Below, piece by piece: positions 4,682 through 11,040 of a stretch of DNA of 64,000 nucleotides. The notes beneath the pieces were generated by a model. That model was not told the origin of the DNA. It made no database searches and worked only from the letters and a program-made list of their open reading frames with translations. The translations under genes were made by a program, and so were the position numbers. Numbering within the stretch: position 1 is the first letter of the stretch; every line of letters begins with the position of its first letter. The stretch is from Planctomyces sp. SH-PL62 (lineage in GTDB: Bacteria; Planctomycetota; Planctomycetia; Isosphaerales; Isosphaeraceae), in NCBI RefSeq assembly GCF_001610895.1, contig NZ_CP011273.1, forward strand, positions 1,488,001 through 1,552,000, in the 5' to 3' direction.

Positions 4682-6487
4682 ATGGCCTTCGACCCCAAGT
4701 ACATCCGCAATTTCTCGATCGTCGCCCACATCGACCACGGCAAGAGCACCCTGGCCGACCAGATCCTGCTCCAGTCGGGTGCGATCACCATTCGCGAGTT
4801 CCGCGAACAATTGCTCGACGACATGGACCTTGAGCGGGAGCGGGGGATCACCATCAAGGCCCGGGCCGTGGCGATCAACTACGTCCTGGACGGGCAGCCG
4901 TACGAGCTGAACCTGATCGACACGCCGGGGCACGTCGACTTCCACTACGAGGTCTCTCGGAGCCTGGCCGCGTGCGAGGGGGCGATCCTCCTCGTCGACG
5001 CCACCCAGGGGGTCCAGGCGCAGACCGTCGCCAACGCCTACCTCGCGGTGGGGGGCGATTTGACGATCGTTCCGGCGCTCAACAAGATCGACATGCAGGC
5101 GGCCCGGCCGGACGAGATCAAGGAGGAGATCATGACCACGCTGGGGATCGACCCCAGCGAGGTCCTCGCGGTCAGCGGCAAGACCGGGATGGGCGTCCCC
5201 GACCTGTTCCGCGCCATCATCGAGCGCGTCCCGCCCCCGGCCGGCGACCCCGCCAAGCCGCTCCGAGCGCTGATCTTCGACTCGAAGTTCGACGATTACC
5301 AGGGCGTCGTGGTCTACGTCCGGGTGGTCGACGGCGTGCTCAAGGTGGGGCAGAAGATCCGCCTGATGGCCGGCGGGACCGACTTCGAGGTGACCAACCT
5401 GGGCCGGTTCCGCCCTCGCGAGGTCGCCTGCGACGAGCTGGGCGTCGGCCAGGTCGGCTACGTGGTCGCCAACATCAAGAAGCTCTCGGACGTCCGGATC
5501 GGCGACACGATCACCCAGGTCCCGAACCCGGCGACCGAGATCCTGCCGGGCTACGAGGAGCCGGTCCAGGTCGTCTTCTGCGGCCTCTTCCCGGCCTCGC
5601 ACAACCAGTTCGACGACCTCCGCACGGCCCTCCAGAAGCTCGCCCTGAACGATTGCAGCTTCACGTTCGAGCCCGAGACCTCCGACGCGCTGGGGTTCGG
5701 CTTCCGCTGCGGGTTCCTGGGCATGCTCCACATGGAGATCGTCCAGCAGCGGCTGGAGCGGGAGAGCAACCTCGCGCTGGTGCAGACCGCCCCCAACGTG
5801 ACCTATGAGATCCTGACGAAGAAGGGGGAGACGCTCCACATCTCCAACCCGACCCGGATCCCGGACCCCGGCGACATCGAGGAGTTCCGCGAGCCCATCG
5901 CCAAGATCAACTTCATCCTGCCGACCGAGAACATCGGCGCGATCATGCAGCTCTGCGAGGATCGCCGGGGGACGTACATCAAGACCGAGTACCTCTCCTC
6001 CACGCGCGCCATCCTGACCTATGAGCTGCCGCTGGCCGAGATGATCTACGACCTCTACGACAAGCTCAAGAGCGCCACCCGCGGCTACGGGACGATGGAC
6101 TACGAGCTTCTCGGGTATCGCGCCGACGACCTCTGCCGGCTCGACATCCTGGTGGCCGGGGTGAAGGTCGACGCCCTGTCGATCGTCGTCCACCGGGACC
6201 ACGCCGACCGTCGCGGCCGGAAGCTCGTGAAGAAGCTCCGGGCGGAGATCGACCGCCACCAGTTCGAGGTGGCGATCCAGGCCGCGATCGGCAGCCGGGT
6301 CATCGCCCGTGAGACGATCTCGGCGCTGCGGAAGAACGTCACCGCCAAGTGCTACGGCGGCGACATTTCCCGGAAGCGGAAGCTCCTGGAAAAGCAAAAA
6401 GAAGGCAAGAAGCGTATGAAGCAGGTGGGGAACGTGGAAATCTCTCAGGACGCGTTCCTGTCGGTCCTCGACGACAGCGACGACTGA
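4682..6487 (+). CDS. lepA: Elongation factor 4 (LepA), back-translocating GTPase
   Basis: 601 residues, the standard LepA length. A translational GTPase acting on the ribosome. The G-domain motifs are G1 AHIDHGKST (residues 15-23), G2 RGITIK, G3 DTPGHVDF and G4 NKID. They are followed by the EF-Tu-like domain II, the EF-G-like domains (LGFGFRCGFLGMLHMEI) and the LepA-specific C-terminal domain ending KRKLLEKQKEGKKRMKQ and VEISQDAFLSVL. The next genes downstream are signal peptidases, the same lepA-lepB neighbourhood known from enterics. Translation initiation relies on a weak ribosome-binding site. Confidence 0.98.
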   Translation: MAFDPKYIRNFSIVAHIDHGKSTLADQILLQSGAITIREFREQLLDDMDLERERGITIKARAVAINYVLDGQPYELNLIDTPGHVDFHYEVSRSLAACEGAILLVDATQGVQAQTVANAYLAVGGDLTIVPALNKIDMQAARPDEIKEEIMTTLGIDPSEVLAVSGKTGMGVPDLFRAIIERVPPPAGDPAKPLRALIFDSKFDDYQGVVVYVRVVDGVLKVGQKIRLMAGGTDFEVTNLGRFRPREVACDELGVGQVGYVVANIKKLSDVRIGDTITQVPNPATEILPGYEEPVQVVFCGLFPASHNQFDDLRTALQKLALNDCSFTFEPETSDALGFGFRCGFLGMLHMEIVQQRLERESNLALVQTAPNVTYEILTKKGETLHISNPTRIPDPGDIEEFREPIAKINFILPTENIGAIMQLCEDRRGTYIKTEYLSSTRAILTYELPLAEMIYDLYDKLKSATRGYGTMDYELLGYRADDLCRLDILVAGVKVDALSIVVHRDHADRRGRKLVKKLRAEIDRHQFEVAIQAAIGSRVIARETISALRKNVTAKCYGGDISRKRKLLEKQKEGKKRMKQVGNVEISQDAFLSVLDDSDD

Positions 6488-6583: not shown

Positions 6584-8038
6584 ATGGACGCGACGCCCTC
6601 GATCCAGGAGCCGGCCGACGTCGGAGAGGCCGCGACGGCCGGGGTGGCGCGGCAGACCGTGGACCTCCTGGTCGCGCTCTGCCTGGGCGTGCTCCTCTTC
6701 CGCACCTTCTCCGCCGAGGCCTACGTCGTCCCGACCGGGTCGATGGCGCCGACGCTCCTGGGCCACCATCGCGAGCTGACCTGCGCCAACTGCCAGTTCC
6801 CGTTCGACGTCGGGCTGGACGAGGAGGCCCCGCCGGCCCGCCCCGTCTGCCCCAACTGCGGCCGCGCCGGGTCCGACGCCCAGCCGGTCGTCGCCTGCAA
6901 CGGCGACCGCGTCCTCGTCCAGAAGTTCCTCTACGACTTCCGCGCCCCGGGACGCTGGGAGGTGGCGGTCTTCCACTTCCCCGGCGATCCCTCGCAGGCG
7001 TACGTCAAGCGAGTGGTGGGCCTCCCCGGCGAGTCGATCCGGATCGCCGGCGGGGACGTCTGGGTCGACGGGGTGGTCGCGCGCAAGAGCCTCCAGGACG
7101 TCCGCGCGATGCGGATCCTCGTCCACGACAGCCGCTACGTCCCGGCCGATTCCGATCGCTATCCCCGCTGGTCGTTCCGCCGGGGGACGACGGCCCGGCC
7201 CGAGCCCACCGGCTGGACCCAGGGACCCGACGGCTTCCGCCGCGCGGCGACCGAACCGGAAGGGGATGCCGAGGACTGGCTGACCTACCGCAACTGGGAT
7301 CCCGCGCTCGACCGCTACGCCCCGATCCGCGACTTCTACGGCTACAACGGCGGCGACTCCCGATCGGACAACGCCGTGAGGGACGTGGGCCTGGAGGCCC
7401 GCGTGGCCCTCGGACCGGGCGTCGAATCGCTGGCGGTCAGCCTTCGGTCCGGCGGCGACCGCTTCGTGGTCAGGATCCCGACCCGCCCCGAGGAGCCCGT
7501 CGAGGTCGTCCGCAACGGCGCGCGACGGAAGGTCTTCATCCTGGGCAATCCGCTGGCCTCCGACGGCGGCGCCGAGACGACCCACACCCTCGAAGCTTCG
7601 CTTTTCGACGACCGGCTGATGGTCGCCGTCGACGGATCGCTCCTGTTCGAGCCGCTCGACTACGACGACCCCGACGACGGCCCCGGAAACGACGAATCCC
7701 CCATCGCGCTGGGAGTCCGAGGGGGGACGCTCCACGTCCCCGAGGTTCGGATCTTCCGCGACGTCCACTACACCAGCTCCCTGGGGGCGGCGCACCGCCG
7801 GCCGCACGCGGTGCTCGACGCCTACCGGCTCGGCGAGGGGGAATACTTCGTGCTGGGAGACAACAGCCCGATTTCCAACGACTCGCGGTTCTGGGCCGAG
7901 GGGCCCGTCGTCCCTCGCTCCCTGTTCCTGGGGAAGCCGTTCCTGGTCCACCTCCCCGGCAAGCTCGTGGCCCTGGAGGTCATGGGGCGGTCGTTTTACT
8001 GGATTCCCGATCCCAGGCGAATTCGTTACATTCACTAA
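6584..8038 (+). CDS. lepB: Signal peptidase I with zinc ribbon and insert domain
   Basis: 484 residues, much longer than typical SPase I. One N-terminal membrane helix (residues 27-40) precedes box B PTGSMAPTL with nucleophile Ser53. A Cx2C...Cx2C zinc ribbon follows at once (C67/C70 and C89/C92). Box D is AYVKRVVGLPGE with the general-base Lys142. Box E is GDNSPISNDSRFW near the C-terminus. Between D and E lies a region of about 250 residues, the later part beta-rich (LEARVALGPGVESLAVSL, FDDRLMVAVDGSLLF), like a LamG/jelly-roll sandwich. Cleaves signal peptides at the outer face of the inner membrane. Start supported by AAAGGGGA nine bases upstream. Second paralogue follows directly. Confidence 0.93.
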   Translation: MDATPSIQEPADVGEAATAGVARQTVDLLVALCLGVLLFRTFSAEAYVVPTGSMAPTLLGHHRELTCANCQFPFDVGLDEEAPPARPVCPNCGRAGSDAQPVVACNGDRVLVQKFLYDFRAPGRWEVAVFHFPGDPSQAYVKRVVGLPGESIRIAGGDVWVDGVVARKSLQDVRAMRILVHDSRYVPADSDRYPRWSFRRGTTARPEPTGWTQGPDGFRRAATEPEGDAEDWLTYRNWDPALDRYAPIRDFYGYNGGDSRSDNAVRDVGLEARVALGPGVESLAVSLRSGGDRFVVRIPTRPEEPVEVVRNGARRKVFILGNPLASDGGAETTHTLEASLFDDRLMVAVDGSLLFEPLDYDDPDDGPGNDESPIALGVRGGTLHVPEVRIFRDVHYTSSLGAAHRRPHAVLDAYRLGEGEYFVLGDNSPISNDSRFWAEGPVVPRSLFLGKPFLVHLPGKLVALEVMGRSFYWIPDPRRIRYIH

Positions 8039-8104
8039 ATGGCCCGCCCGGAACCCGCTCCGGCCCCGGATACCCGCCCTCCTCGGTTTAGAGACCCAAT
8101 CATC

Positions 8105-9865
8105 ATGGGACGGACCGCCGCCTCGCCCCCCCCGGCCCCTTCCTCGAAGTCGTCGGGGACCGCGACCGATCCCCGGAGCCGGGGGGCCGCCACGGCCCGT
8201 TCGGGCGACGGTCTCCGCGAGACGCTGGAGGCCCTCGTCGTCGCGGCGGTCGCCGCCCTGGTCGTCCGCGGGTTCGAGGCCCAGGCGTTCGTCATCCCGA
8301 CCGGGTCGATGGCGCCGACCCTGATGGGGCGGCACAAGGAGGTCGTCTGCCCCCAGTGCGGGTTCCTCTACTCCGTCAACGCCTCCGAGGAGGTCGAGGG
8401 GAGCGGGCCCCTCCGCCCGGTCTATTCCGGCGTCTGCGTGAACTGCCGCCATCAGGCCACCCGGCTCGACGACGCCCCCAGCTACAAGGGAGACCGCATC
8501 CTGGTCTCCATGTTCCCCTACGACCTCCCCTCGCTCCCCGGGGCCTCCCCCCCGGAGCGCTACGACGTGGTCGTGTTCCGGTATCCCGAGGAGCCCGAAG
8601 TCAGCTACATCAAGCGACTCGTCGGCCTCCCCGGCGAGACCATCCGGATCCACCACGGGGATCTCTACATCAGGCCCCCGGGGGCCTCCGACTTCCGGCT
8701 CCAGCGCAAGCCCCTGGAGCACCTGAAGGGGATGCAGATCCCGGTCTACGACGACACCTGCCAGCCCCGGATCTTCCGAGAACGGTCCGAATGGCGACGA
8801 TGGGGCCCTGAGCCCCCGACGGCCGGCTGGAAGGTCGGCGAACCGGGCCTGAGCTTCTACCGCTGCGACGCCGCGACCGAGGAGTGGGCCGACCTCCGCT
8901 ATCGGCACCTCGTCCCCGAGCCCGAGCAGTGGGAGGCCCTCCTGAACGACCGGACGCCCTCGCGAGGCCCCCGGCCCACCCTGATCACCGACTTCTACTC
9001 GTACAACACGAACCTCCCGGCCGAGAACTCCGACCTCAACGGGTCGAGGGGGGACACCCGCAACGCCTGGCTCCAGCCCCACTGGGTCGGCGACCTGACC
9101 CTCGCGGCCGACCTGGACGTCCAGTCCGATCGGGGCGAGATCCGCATGGAGCTGGTGAAGGGTGGCGTCCGCCACTTCGCCGAGATCGACGTCGCCACCG
9201 GCAAGACGAGGTTCCTCCGGGGCGAGGAGATCCTGGCCGAGTTCGACGGCCCGGTCGTCGGCCCGGGCAAGCGTCGGCTGGAGTTCGGGAACGTCGACGA
9301 CCGCCTCACCCTGCTGGTCGACGGCGAACCGATCGGCGGCGAAGGGGTGGAGTTCGACCTCGGCGACGCGGTCCCGGAGCCCACCGCGGCCGACCTCTCG
9401 CCCGCCGCCGTCTCCGCCCGAGGGGCGATCGTTTCCGCGAGCGACCTTGTCCTGAAACGGGATATCTACTATACCCAGACGCCGGGCTACACCGATTACG
9501 GCCCGGTCTGGGAGGATCGGGAACCGAGACGGCCGTCCGAGCTGTTCGATTTCCTCTCCAACCCCGCCCGGTTCCCCAACCTCGCGCGGGTCCGCAGCGA
9601 GGAGTACGAGCTGGGCGACGATCGGTTCATGATGATGGGCGACAACAGCCCTCGGAGCAAGGACAGCCGAGGCTGGGATTCGTTCGATCGAGCCTGGGAC
9701 ACCGTCGACCGCCAGTCCTGGGAAGTCCCCCGGAGCCTGGTGACCGGCAAGGCCTTCTTCGTCTACTGGCCCCACGGCGTCCCGTTCGGTCCCGACTTCC
9801 GGCTCAGCCGGGACTTCCGCGTCCCGTTCCGCCCCTACTTCGAGCGGATGCGGTGGATCCGCTGA
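8105..9865 (+). CDS. lepB: Second signal peptidase I, tandem paralogue
   Basis: 586 residues from ATG 8105. An earlier ATG at 8039 abuts the previous stop, but the intervening codons (TTT AGA, CCA) do not match this genome's third-position G/C bias, so 8105 is preferred. The order mirrors the upstream gene: a proline/serine-rich cytoplasmic tail, one helix (LEALVVAAVAALVV), box B PTGSMAPTL with Ser68, zinc ribbon C82/C85 and C111/C114, box D SYIKRLVGLPGE with Lys170, a long insert with a beta-sandwich-like part (LTLAADLDVQSDRGEIRMEL, FGNVDDRLTLLVDGEPI), and box E GDNSPRSKDSRGW. The tandem copies have clearly diverged, suggesting different substrates rather than a recent duplication. Confidence 0.92.
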   Translation: MGRTAASPPPAPSSKSSGTATDPRSRGAATARSGDGLRETLEALVVAAVAALVVRGFEAQAFVIPTGSMAPTLMGRHKEVVCPQCGFLYSVNASEEVEGSGPLRPVYSGVCVNCRHQATRLDDAPSYKGDRILVSMFPYDLPSLPGASPPERYDVVVFRYPEEPEVSYIKRLVGLPGETIRIHHGDLYIRPPGASDFRLQRKPLEHLKGMQIPVYDDTCQPRIFRERSEWRRWGPEPPTAGWKVGEPGLSFYRCDAATEEWADLRYRHLVPEPEQWEALLNDRTPSRGPRPTLITDFYSYNTNLPAENSDLNGSRGDTRNAWLQPHWVGDLTLAADLDVQSDRGEIRMELVKGGVRHFAEIDVATGKTRFLRGEEILAEFDGPVVGPGKRRLEFGNVDDRLTLLVDGEPIGGEGVEFDLGDAVPEPTAADLSPAAVSARGAIVSASDLVLKRDIYYTQTPGYTDYGPVWEDREPRRPSELFDFLSNPARFPNLARVRSEEYELGDDRFMMMGDNSPRSKDSRGWDSFDRAWDTVDRQSWEVPRSLVTGKAFFVYWPHGVPFGPDFRLSRDFRVPFRPYFERMRWIR

Positions 9866-9932: not shown

Positions 9933-10906
9933 ATGGCCCTGCTGGAAGTCCGCGCCCTGGAGAAGTGGTACGGCCGTCGCCAGGTCGTGAACGGGGTCGA
10001 GTTCGACGTCGAACAGGGCGAGGTCGTCGGCCTCCTGGGCCCCAACGGCGCCGGCAAGACCACCAGCTTCCGCATGACCATCGGCCTGATCGACGCCGAC
10101 GGCGGCTCCGTCGTCTTCGACGGCCGCGACGTCACCAAGCTGCCGATGTACCTCCGCGCCCGCGCCGGCATGGGCTATCTGGCCCAGGACTCCAGCGTCT
10201 TCCGCCAGCTCACCGTCGAACAGAACCTGATGGCGATCCTCGAAACCCGCCACGACATGACGCGCAAGCAGCGCAAGGATCGACTCGACGACCTGGTCGA
10301 CCGCTTCGGGCTCGGCAAGATCCGCAAGACCAAGGCCCACATGGTCTCCGGCGGCGAACGCCGACGCACCGAGATCGCCCGGGCGCTGATCACCGACCCC
10401 AAGCTGATCATGCTCGACGAGCCGTTCGCGGGCATCGACCCCAAGACGGTCGGCGAGATCCAGGAGCAGATCCGTGACCTGGTCGACACCTTCAACATCG
10501 GCATCCTGCTGACCGACCACCAGTTCCGCGAGACCCTGGAAGTCACCGACCGCTGCTACGTCATCCGCGAAGGCCGGGTCTTCGCCTACGGCGACCGCGA
10601 GCAGATCCTCAACAACGCCGACGTCCGCCGCTACTACATCGGCGAGCGGTTCGACGGCGGCCACCTGCTCGACTCGCAGCGCCCCGTCATGTCGCTCTCG
10701 AAGACCCAGCCGTCGCTGCCGCCGACCCCGCCCCCGCCGCCCCCCCGGCGCAAGCCCCCCCGCCGACCGCCGAGCCCGACGATCCCGAGACCGTCCGGAG
10801 CGAGATCGCCGACGAGGGCCGAGGCTACGTCCAGGGGGGGACGCACTCGATCCAGATCAACCAGCTCCCGCCCGACTTCAACGTCGACGACCTCTACAAG
10901 AAGTGA
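9933..10906 (+). CDS. lptB: LptB-type ABC transporter ATPase, C-terminal tail in -1 frame
   Basis: The core of about 240 residues is a complete LptB: Walker A GPNGAGKTT (36-44), Q-loop YLAQDSSVF, signature VSGGERRRTEIA, Walker B LIMLDEPFAGIDP, switch His in LLTDHQF, and YYIGERF at the core end. It powers lipopolysaccharide extraction and transport with LptFG. After the core the initial frame runs on as P/R/T-rich nonsense to 11003. The -1 frame instead encodes a plausible acidic tail (EPDDPETVRSEIADEGRGY) ending IQINQLPPDFNVDDLYKK and stopping at 10904-10906. One extra C in the C7 run at 10740-10746 would join them seamlessly. Either a sequence error, a real frameshift, or slippage. Confidence 0.9.
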
Positions 10907-10933
10907 GCGAGCCACCCGGGCCGCCCCCGTCGC

Positions 10934-11040
10934 GATTGGGTTCGTTCGCGCCGACCGCGCAACGTACCCGATCGACGTAAACCTAAGAATAAAAACCGTT
11001 TAAGCCCAGATTTCGGCCTCCCGGATTGGCTTCGTTCGGC
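10934..11040. repeat. Two copies of the ATTGGGTTCGTTCG intergenic repeat
   Basis: GATTGGGTTCGTTCG at 10934-10948 and GATTGGCTTCGTTCGGC at 11024-11040, separated by an unusually A/T-rich spacer (10971-11003, containing ACGTAAACC and AATAAAAACC). The same element occurs six more times at 61866-62180. On the minus strand it reads CGCCGAACGAACCCAATC. The rest of 10907-11348 shows no gene. Confidence 0.75.

Follow-up and report, generated by a model that had tools for sequence, protein, structure and literature searches.

Tandem enlarged type I signal peptidases of Planctomycetota with a cysteine ribbon and a predicted concanavalin A-like domain in place of domain II

Type I signal peptidases are central and usually essential enzymes of bacterial secretion, and the role of their noncatalytic domain II is, to our knowledge, unclear. 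The enzyme family is already known; its Escherichia coli member, LepB (family S26A), combines a catalytic core extending from box B to box E with a Ser/Lys dyad and, according to a review (PMC12067869), has two anchor helices. Here, we describe two adjacent enlarged members of this family, P1 and P2, encoded in a window of 64,000 nucleotides from Planctomyces sp. SH-PL62 (G000:C1:1488001-1552000; genome size, 6.78 Mb). They share the core, boxes B to E, and the dyad with LepB but differ from it in having one predicted anchor helix each, in adding a Cys4 ribbon after box B, in carrying a predicted concanavalin A (ConA)-like sandwich where LepB has domain II, and in occurring as two tandem copies plus a third, P3.

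Another described enzyme, chlamydial CT020, is large in size and comes from a related superphylum; it is compared here by description. A report on it (PMC1403754) presents it as a signal peptidase I strongly diverged from its nonchlamydial counterparts. A search of the open-access literature, with subscription papers lying outside it, turned up no account of a ConA-like insert or of the ribbon among the papers listed, and passages of PMC12419801 proved unrelated to either feature.

The identity of the two proteins is clear from profile searches, in which P1 and P2 scored 104 and 98.3 bits, respectively, against Peptidase_S26 (PF10502; cutoff, 22.9) and 90.7 and 82.5 bits against the NCBIfam model sigpep_I_bact (TIGR02227; cutoff, 47); the PHROGs match in both was to the S26 core alone. 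Conservation was assessed across a family set of 119 rows (118 distinct), which leaves out the loci repeating the window (L001, L002, and L004 to L007), the viral loci (L117 to L129), and fragments with a profile span of <380 or a start after position 25. The dyad and box E are invariant in an alignment of 16 relatives (A1), and the catalytic parts of the structure models of P1 and P2 match E. coli LepB in VIA-align with Z scores of 15.2 (3.0 Å over 158 residues) and 13.0. On this evidence, P1 and P2 are type I signal peptidases (S26A) with a predicted signal peptide cleavage activity. An initial annotation of the window had proposed two strongly diverged tandem frames, each with an intact dyad. 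The frames lie where it placed them, their divergence is borne out by 33% identity in A1, and the P1 dyad stands as given, with both residues conserved in 118 of 118 relatives. The P2 dyad is likewise present, but the proposed numbering, Ser68/Lys170, takes an internal Met (residue 23) as its starting point, and the full open reading frame gives Ser90/Lys192. Chance or a frame artifact is excluded by two long frames above the family cutoffs with 118 relatives, and an inactive paralogue is excluded by the intact dyad and box E.

Between boxes D and E, both proteins carry the insert that the initial annotation had described as long and partly β-rich. Among the 118 relatives, 235 to 544 residues (median, 325) separate the catalytic Lys from the GDN of box E, versus about 50 to 126 in the eight viral contig enzymes of ordinary type that were measured; the insert proper measures 199 to 368 residues in 48 aligned members. 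AlphaFold2 models, computed for P1 from 48 family rows (A2) and for P2 from 41 (A4), both sets picked by hand for this purpose, predict an ordered β sandwich in each protein, so that "partly β-rich" proved an understatement. A disordered insert is excluded by the predicted local distance difference test (pLDDT) values of the P1 insert, which are 76 to 98 per 10-residue block except for one block at 63. In Foldseek searches, the P1 model retrieved E. coli LepB first (E = 1.1e-8), followed by sialidase, carbohydrate-binding module (CBM), lectin, and glucanase folds, and the P2 model retrieved CBM66 first (E = 3.5e-7), with LepB at an E value of 3.0e-6. The ConA-like rows listed by VIA-align reached Z scores of 11.3 to 16.2 across P1 and P2, where the guide value for models without a clear match is a best Z of usually 7 to 8. 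CBM66 of the Bacillus subtilis levanase (4azz, 4b1l, and 4b1m) has such a sandwich at a similar size (Z = 12.0 for the P1 insert; see Table 1 for P2). The L-type lectins ERGIC-53 and VIP36, which serve as cargo receptors in eukaryotes and have mannose sites that depend on Ca, belong to the same fold class; identity to them is about 8 to 12%, and the likeness is one of fold.

As modeled, then, the insert is a ConA-like β sandwich of the LamG/CBM66/PF06439 type that replaces domain II of E. coli LepB. The genome of the window yielded 21 PF06439 domains, and comparison by hhalign of 45 inserts with 20 of these gave a probability of 82%, an E value of 9.9e-6, and a score of 40.9, against 16.6 for a reversed profile and 14.5 for the best of 30 column shuffles, which provides independent sequence support for the ConA-like fold. 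Unlike the insert of P1 and P2, the CBM66 and PF06439 domains are not inserted in a protease. Pfam and NCBIfam scans of P1 and P2 named no convincing family in the insert, and PF06439 matched 1 of the 48 members (E = 0.019). Within the insert, Trp211, Asp267, Asp342, Arg392, and Asp393 are invariant in A1, and Asp250, Tyr254, Asn255, and Tyr396 are nearly so.

Directly after box B, both proteins contain the Cx2C...Cx2C ribbon that the initial annotation had described. It is not a chance feature, because 99 of the 118 relatives have at least two CxxC motifs between the catalytic Ser and Lys. Zinc ribbon models from Pfam gave weak matches, each in 1 to 6 of 48 members (best E value, 0.00038); in the P1 model, strands flank the first CxxC pair, and the ribbon is barely covered by the fold searches. 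The ribbon probably binds zinc. Two relatives (L017 and L026) have an enlarged ribbon region after box B with extra CxxC pairs.

Phylogenetic analysis recovered a P1 clade of 18 rows (Shimodaira-Hasegawa-like approximate likelihood ratio test support, 96) and a P2 clade of 42 rows (support, 98) in a quick tree; of its 115 inner branches, 42 are shown as open, and the positions of long-branch rows are uncertain. Each clade spans several families, indicating that the duplication is old and not local; two P2 clade rows are titled Kuenenia, and P3 groups with P2. The residue preceding the catalytic Lys, which aligns with LepB Ile144 (numbering taken from the papers), is Val in all 18 P1 clade rows, Ile in all 42 P2 clade rows, and Ile in 52 of the 57 others; in the two long-branch rows that are sister to the P1 clade, it is Leu in one and Val in the other. 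A modeling paper (PMC2259416) places Ile144 in the S1, S2, and S3 subsites, and a review (PMC12067869) describes Ile86 and Ile144 as crucial both for the specificity of LepB and for the fidelity of its cleavage. At the Ile86 position, too, the P1 protein of the window has Val, a residue found there in 7 of the 18 rows of its clade. A further difference lies in a segment with Pro452 (18 of 18), His456 (17 of 18), and Leu457 (15 of 18) in the P1 clade versus Ala (41 of 42), Tyr or Phe (41 of 42), and Trp (40 of 42) in the P2 clade; this segment may correspond to the membrane-facing strand that bears Trp300 in LepB. At one locus, from a metagenome-assembled genome titled Gimesia (L055:3065-4745), the P1 gene occurs as two separate frames, which may reflect decay or an assembly error. 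Short, very diverged P1-like enzymes occur near a normal P2 at L034 (second open reading frame), L056:3374, L077:3434, and L092:324, some of these loci being titled Pirellulaceae; decay or rapid change of P1 is possible there.

The insert is widespread in the phylum. Its profile matches 140 of 149 Planctomycetota genomes, and 139 of them contain a relative of P1, although some of the latter matches may be due just to the catalytic core. In the genome of the window, the profile matched in three places among the 19 of 106 first-look candidates that were scored, namely, P1, P2, and P3. These are also the three S26 genes of the genome, all enlarged, and a PF10502 search there retrieved nothing beyond them. 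P3, the third enlarged copy, lies at about 4.903 Mb of G000:C1 and adjoins genes that we read as NADH dehydrogenase-like. Three S24 matches are also present in the genome, two of which read as helix-turn-helix repressors, and the third (206 amino acids [aa]) is taken as LexA on the basis of its size and score. Within the same class, an enlarged S26 frame (at least 440 aa) is present in all 30 genomes and a tandem enlarged pair in 27, and 25 have no ordinary-size S26 frame; these counts use matches with E values up to 0.001, one row per frame, and rest on frame sizes rather than on aligned inserts. Because P1, P2, and P3 are the only PF10502 matches in the genome, a general role has more support than a special one, and the absence of another such match here, together with the 25 class genomes lacking an ordinary-size frame, makes a specialized role unlikely. 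Thus, the three look like general signal peptidases rather than an accessory set for LEPR proteins, whose long N termini had initially been suggested as targets of the insert. A planctomycete, Kuenenia, is reported in PMC2881027 to have a single signal peptidase I.

Relatives were drawn from one scan of genome contigs; among the best 80 of 494 relatives, all titles that name a group are planctomycete (2 of the 80 name none), and the nearest relatives of P1 and P2 are at loci titled Planctomycetales, Planctomycetota, and Singulisphaera. A plasmid search with the P2 insert gave no match. A recent mobile or phage-borne origin of the genes is excluded, the S26 frames of the 13 viral contig loci being 170 to 368 aa long.

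The proposal that the inserts recognize LEPR-type long N termini or other special substrates is highly improbable in light of their distribution. The LEPR-8K model (NF012209), which has 24 positions and may miss LEPR proteins, matches 8 of the 149 genomes, against 140 for the insert. Seven of the eight also have an insert match, but one (G004) has a LEPR match without it, and 133 genomes carry the insert without a LEPR match, on which ground we reject the association; seven same-class genomes (G024, G048, G069, G087, G105, G121, and G137) are among those with the insert and no LEPR match. No frame of the window contained a match to a regular expression for LEPR-type motifs, and a looser one gave three internal minus-strand matches that look like shadow frames. 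A single LEPR-8K match in the genome of the window and the difference between P1 and P2 at the specificity residue could be taken to favor the proposal, but the genome would then have no S26 match beyond the enlarged ones left for general substrates. What survives of the earlier interpretation is, therefore, a pair of enlarged, diverged, and catalytically complete enzymes with a folded β insert, and what falls is the LEPR link.

We favor, with a probability of roughly 0.7, the view that P1, P2, and P3 are general membrane-anchored signal peptidases equipped with a ConA-like docking domain and a Cys4 ribbon and that P1 and P2 split the exported proteins. Under this mechanism, signal peptides would arrive at the active site on the membrane side in the manner of LepB, and the conserved Ser/Lys dyad would cut them at the inner membrane, on its outer face. 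Judged from the layout of LepB, the ribbon would sit at the membrane-facing edge of the active site, where it may bind zinc and stiffen or cap that edge. The ConA-like domain, in the place of domain II, could dock the peptidase to an envelope or translocon partner or to a glycan. P1 and P2 may share out the exported proteins between them, a division suggested by the clade-fixed change at the specificity residue. With regard to the insert, a docking or recognition role is possible; we propose as most likely that the domain tethers the enzyme to some envelope component, with a sugar, a protein, and no partner at all being candidates.

Several observations weigh against this view. Nine of the 149 genomes lack a match to the insert profile, and 5 of the 30 class genomes have an additional short S26 frame. 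Outside the class, ordinary short S26 enzymes also occur in many genomes, among the matches listed, so that signal peptide removal there may not fall to the enlarged enzymes alone. Two CxxC motifs between Ser and Lys are lacking in 19 of the 118 relatives, implying that the metal is not essential throughout. As to the fold, the hhalign match to PF06439 spans just 57 columns, covering the last strands of the insert, and a search of the insert profile against PDB sequences gave nothing significant, CBM66 (E = 0.28) ranking below an unrelated ankyrin design (E = 0.12). Moreover, ConA-like domains often do not bind sugars, and a common fold is no proof of function. The 19 relatives without the ribbon comprise ten that form one clade, six with a short linker, and three that stand alone. 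The 10-member clade (L085, L095, L101, L102, L105, L106, L111 to L113, and L116), mostly titled Phycisphaerae or just Planctomycetota, keeps the segment after box B with the cysteines gone, suggesting that this segment may work without metal.

The docking role has two main competitors. The insert could be a structural elaboration, that is, a lineage-specific substitute for domain II that maintains the fold of the catalytic domain and does not engage any partner; its position at a site of length variation in signal peptidases, its variable length among the 48 aligned members, and the presence of just eight invariant or nearly invariant positions all fit this idea. We nevertheless consider it rather doubtful, as the insert is kept across a whole phylum and contains nearly invariant Asp, Trp, and Arg residues. 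Still less likely is a true carbohydrate-binding module tying the peptidase to peptidoglycan, lipopolysaccharide (LPS), or nascent glycoproteins in the manner of the cargo lectins of the endoplasmic reticulum (ER). The nearest solved folds (ERGIC-53, VIP36, CBM66, and the galactocerebrosidase lectin domain) point in that direction, as do the downstream lptB gene, which ties the locus to envelope export, and the heavily O-glycosylated S-layer of the planctomycete Kuenenia reported in PMC5088730. However, Asp250/Tyr254/Asn255, Asp267, and Arg392/Asp393/Tyr396 are close in sequence to the points where strands begin and to the domain junction, an arrangement that fits a structural role too. The boldest version, in which lectin-bearing signal peptidases couple signal peptide removal to a glycan (on a nascent glycoprotein, peptidoglycan, or LPS) and two tandem enzymes of different specificity sort the exported proteome, is a long shot; if true, such glycan coupling in the general secretion of Planctomycetota would be a bacterial parallel to the ER cargo lectins.

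Concerning the division of labor, the two enzymes might instead consist of a specialized P1 and a housekeeping P2, which we regard as a tentative possibility. The fixed Val at the Ile144 position and the differing strand with Pro452, His456, and Leu457 would agree with specialization, as would the Pirellulaceae-titled loci that keep P2 and either show no P1 or have it in a long-branch form and the split P1 gene of L055. Set against this are the intact catalytic Ser and Lys in all P1 clade rows and the persistence of the pair in 27 of the 30 class genomes.

The two genes lie in the order lepA-signal peptidase-signal peptidase-lptB (Table 1), and the ATG of P2 abuts the TAA stop of P1 (8036-8038) with zero gap. 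The position of lepA upstream of P1 mirrors the E. coli operon, in which lepA precedes lepB. Among the 80 relative loci, some of which end at contig ends, lepA is found in 19 (in one, L048, on the opposite strand) and lptB in 39. At least two S26 frames on one strand, our definition of a tandem in this count, occur in 20 of the 80, including L092 (frames 3 kb apart), L051 (one frame cut by the contig end), and L055 (split P1). In the lptB frame, the match to the ABC family ends at residue 240 of 356, and the Pro/Arg-rich tail beyond it is either a real extension or a frame error. The next gene after lptB encodes a chromate efflux transporter (TIGR00937; 11199-12554).

Table 1. Features of the locus, in window coordinates (pTM, predicted template modeling score; rmsd, root mean square deviation)
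Feature	Position	Strand	Evidence
lepA, elongation factor 4, upstream neighbor	4682..6487	+	TIGR01393, 910 bits vs cutoff of 534
P1, enlarged type I signal peptidase, 484 aa	6584..8038	+	PF10502 E = 1.1e-29; TIGR02227 E = 8.6e-26; model pLDDT 88.2, pTM 0.87
P1 predicted membrane anchor helix, residues 17-41	6632..6706	+	Helix in model; membrane role suggested by hydrophobic sequence
P1 catalytic Ser53 (box B)	6740..6742	+	Ser in 118/118 distinct relatives
P1 CxxC-X18-CxxC ribbon, Cys67/70/89/92	6782..6859	+	At least two CxxC in 99/118 relatives
P1 catalytic Lys142 (box D), preceded by Val141 at LepB Ile144	7007..7009	+	Lys in 118/118; alignment to LepB
P1 predicted ConA-like insert, residues 175-397	7106..7774	+	VIA-align ERGIC-53 (4ygb_A) Z 13.3, rmsd 3.4, 168 aligned
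P1 box E, GDNSPISNDSR, residues 425-435	7856..7888	+	Ser431 in 117/118, Asp433 in 118/118, Arg435 in 118/118
P2, enlarged type I signal peptidase, 608 aa	8039..9865	+	PF10502 E = 6.3e-28; TIGR02227 E = 3e-23; model pLDDT 82.6, pTM 0.83
P2 predicted membrane anchor helix, residues 57-78	8207..8272	+	Helix in model; residues 1-50 low confidence
P2 catalytic Ser90 (box B)	8306..8308	+	Invariant in A4
P2 CxxC...CxxC ribbon, Cys104/107/133/136	8348..8446	+	A4: Cys133/136 invariant, Cys104/107 at least 90%
P2 catalytic Lys192 (box D), after Ile191	8612..8614	+	Invariant in A4
P2 predicted ConA-like insert, residues 231-479	8729..9475	+	VIA-align galactocerebrosidase Z 16.2, CBM66 Z 15.2, ERGIC-53 Z 14.8
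P2 box E, GDNSPRSKDSR, residues 534-544	9638..9670	+	Gly534, Asp535, Asn536, Ser540, Asp542, and Arg544 invariant in A4
lptB, LPS export ABC ATPase, downstream neighbor	9933..11003	+	TIGR04406, 330 bits vs cutoff of 240

A phylum with a predicted lectin-like domain in the place of domain II, and within it a class that keeps two adjacent copies of the enzyme, amounts to a natural experiment on the purpose of that domain. The finding bears on how secreted proteins are matured in planctomycetes, with their unusual envelope, and on how far programs that predict signal peptides and inhibitors of signal peptidase are applicable to these bacteria.

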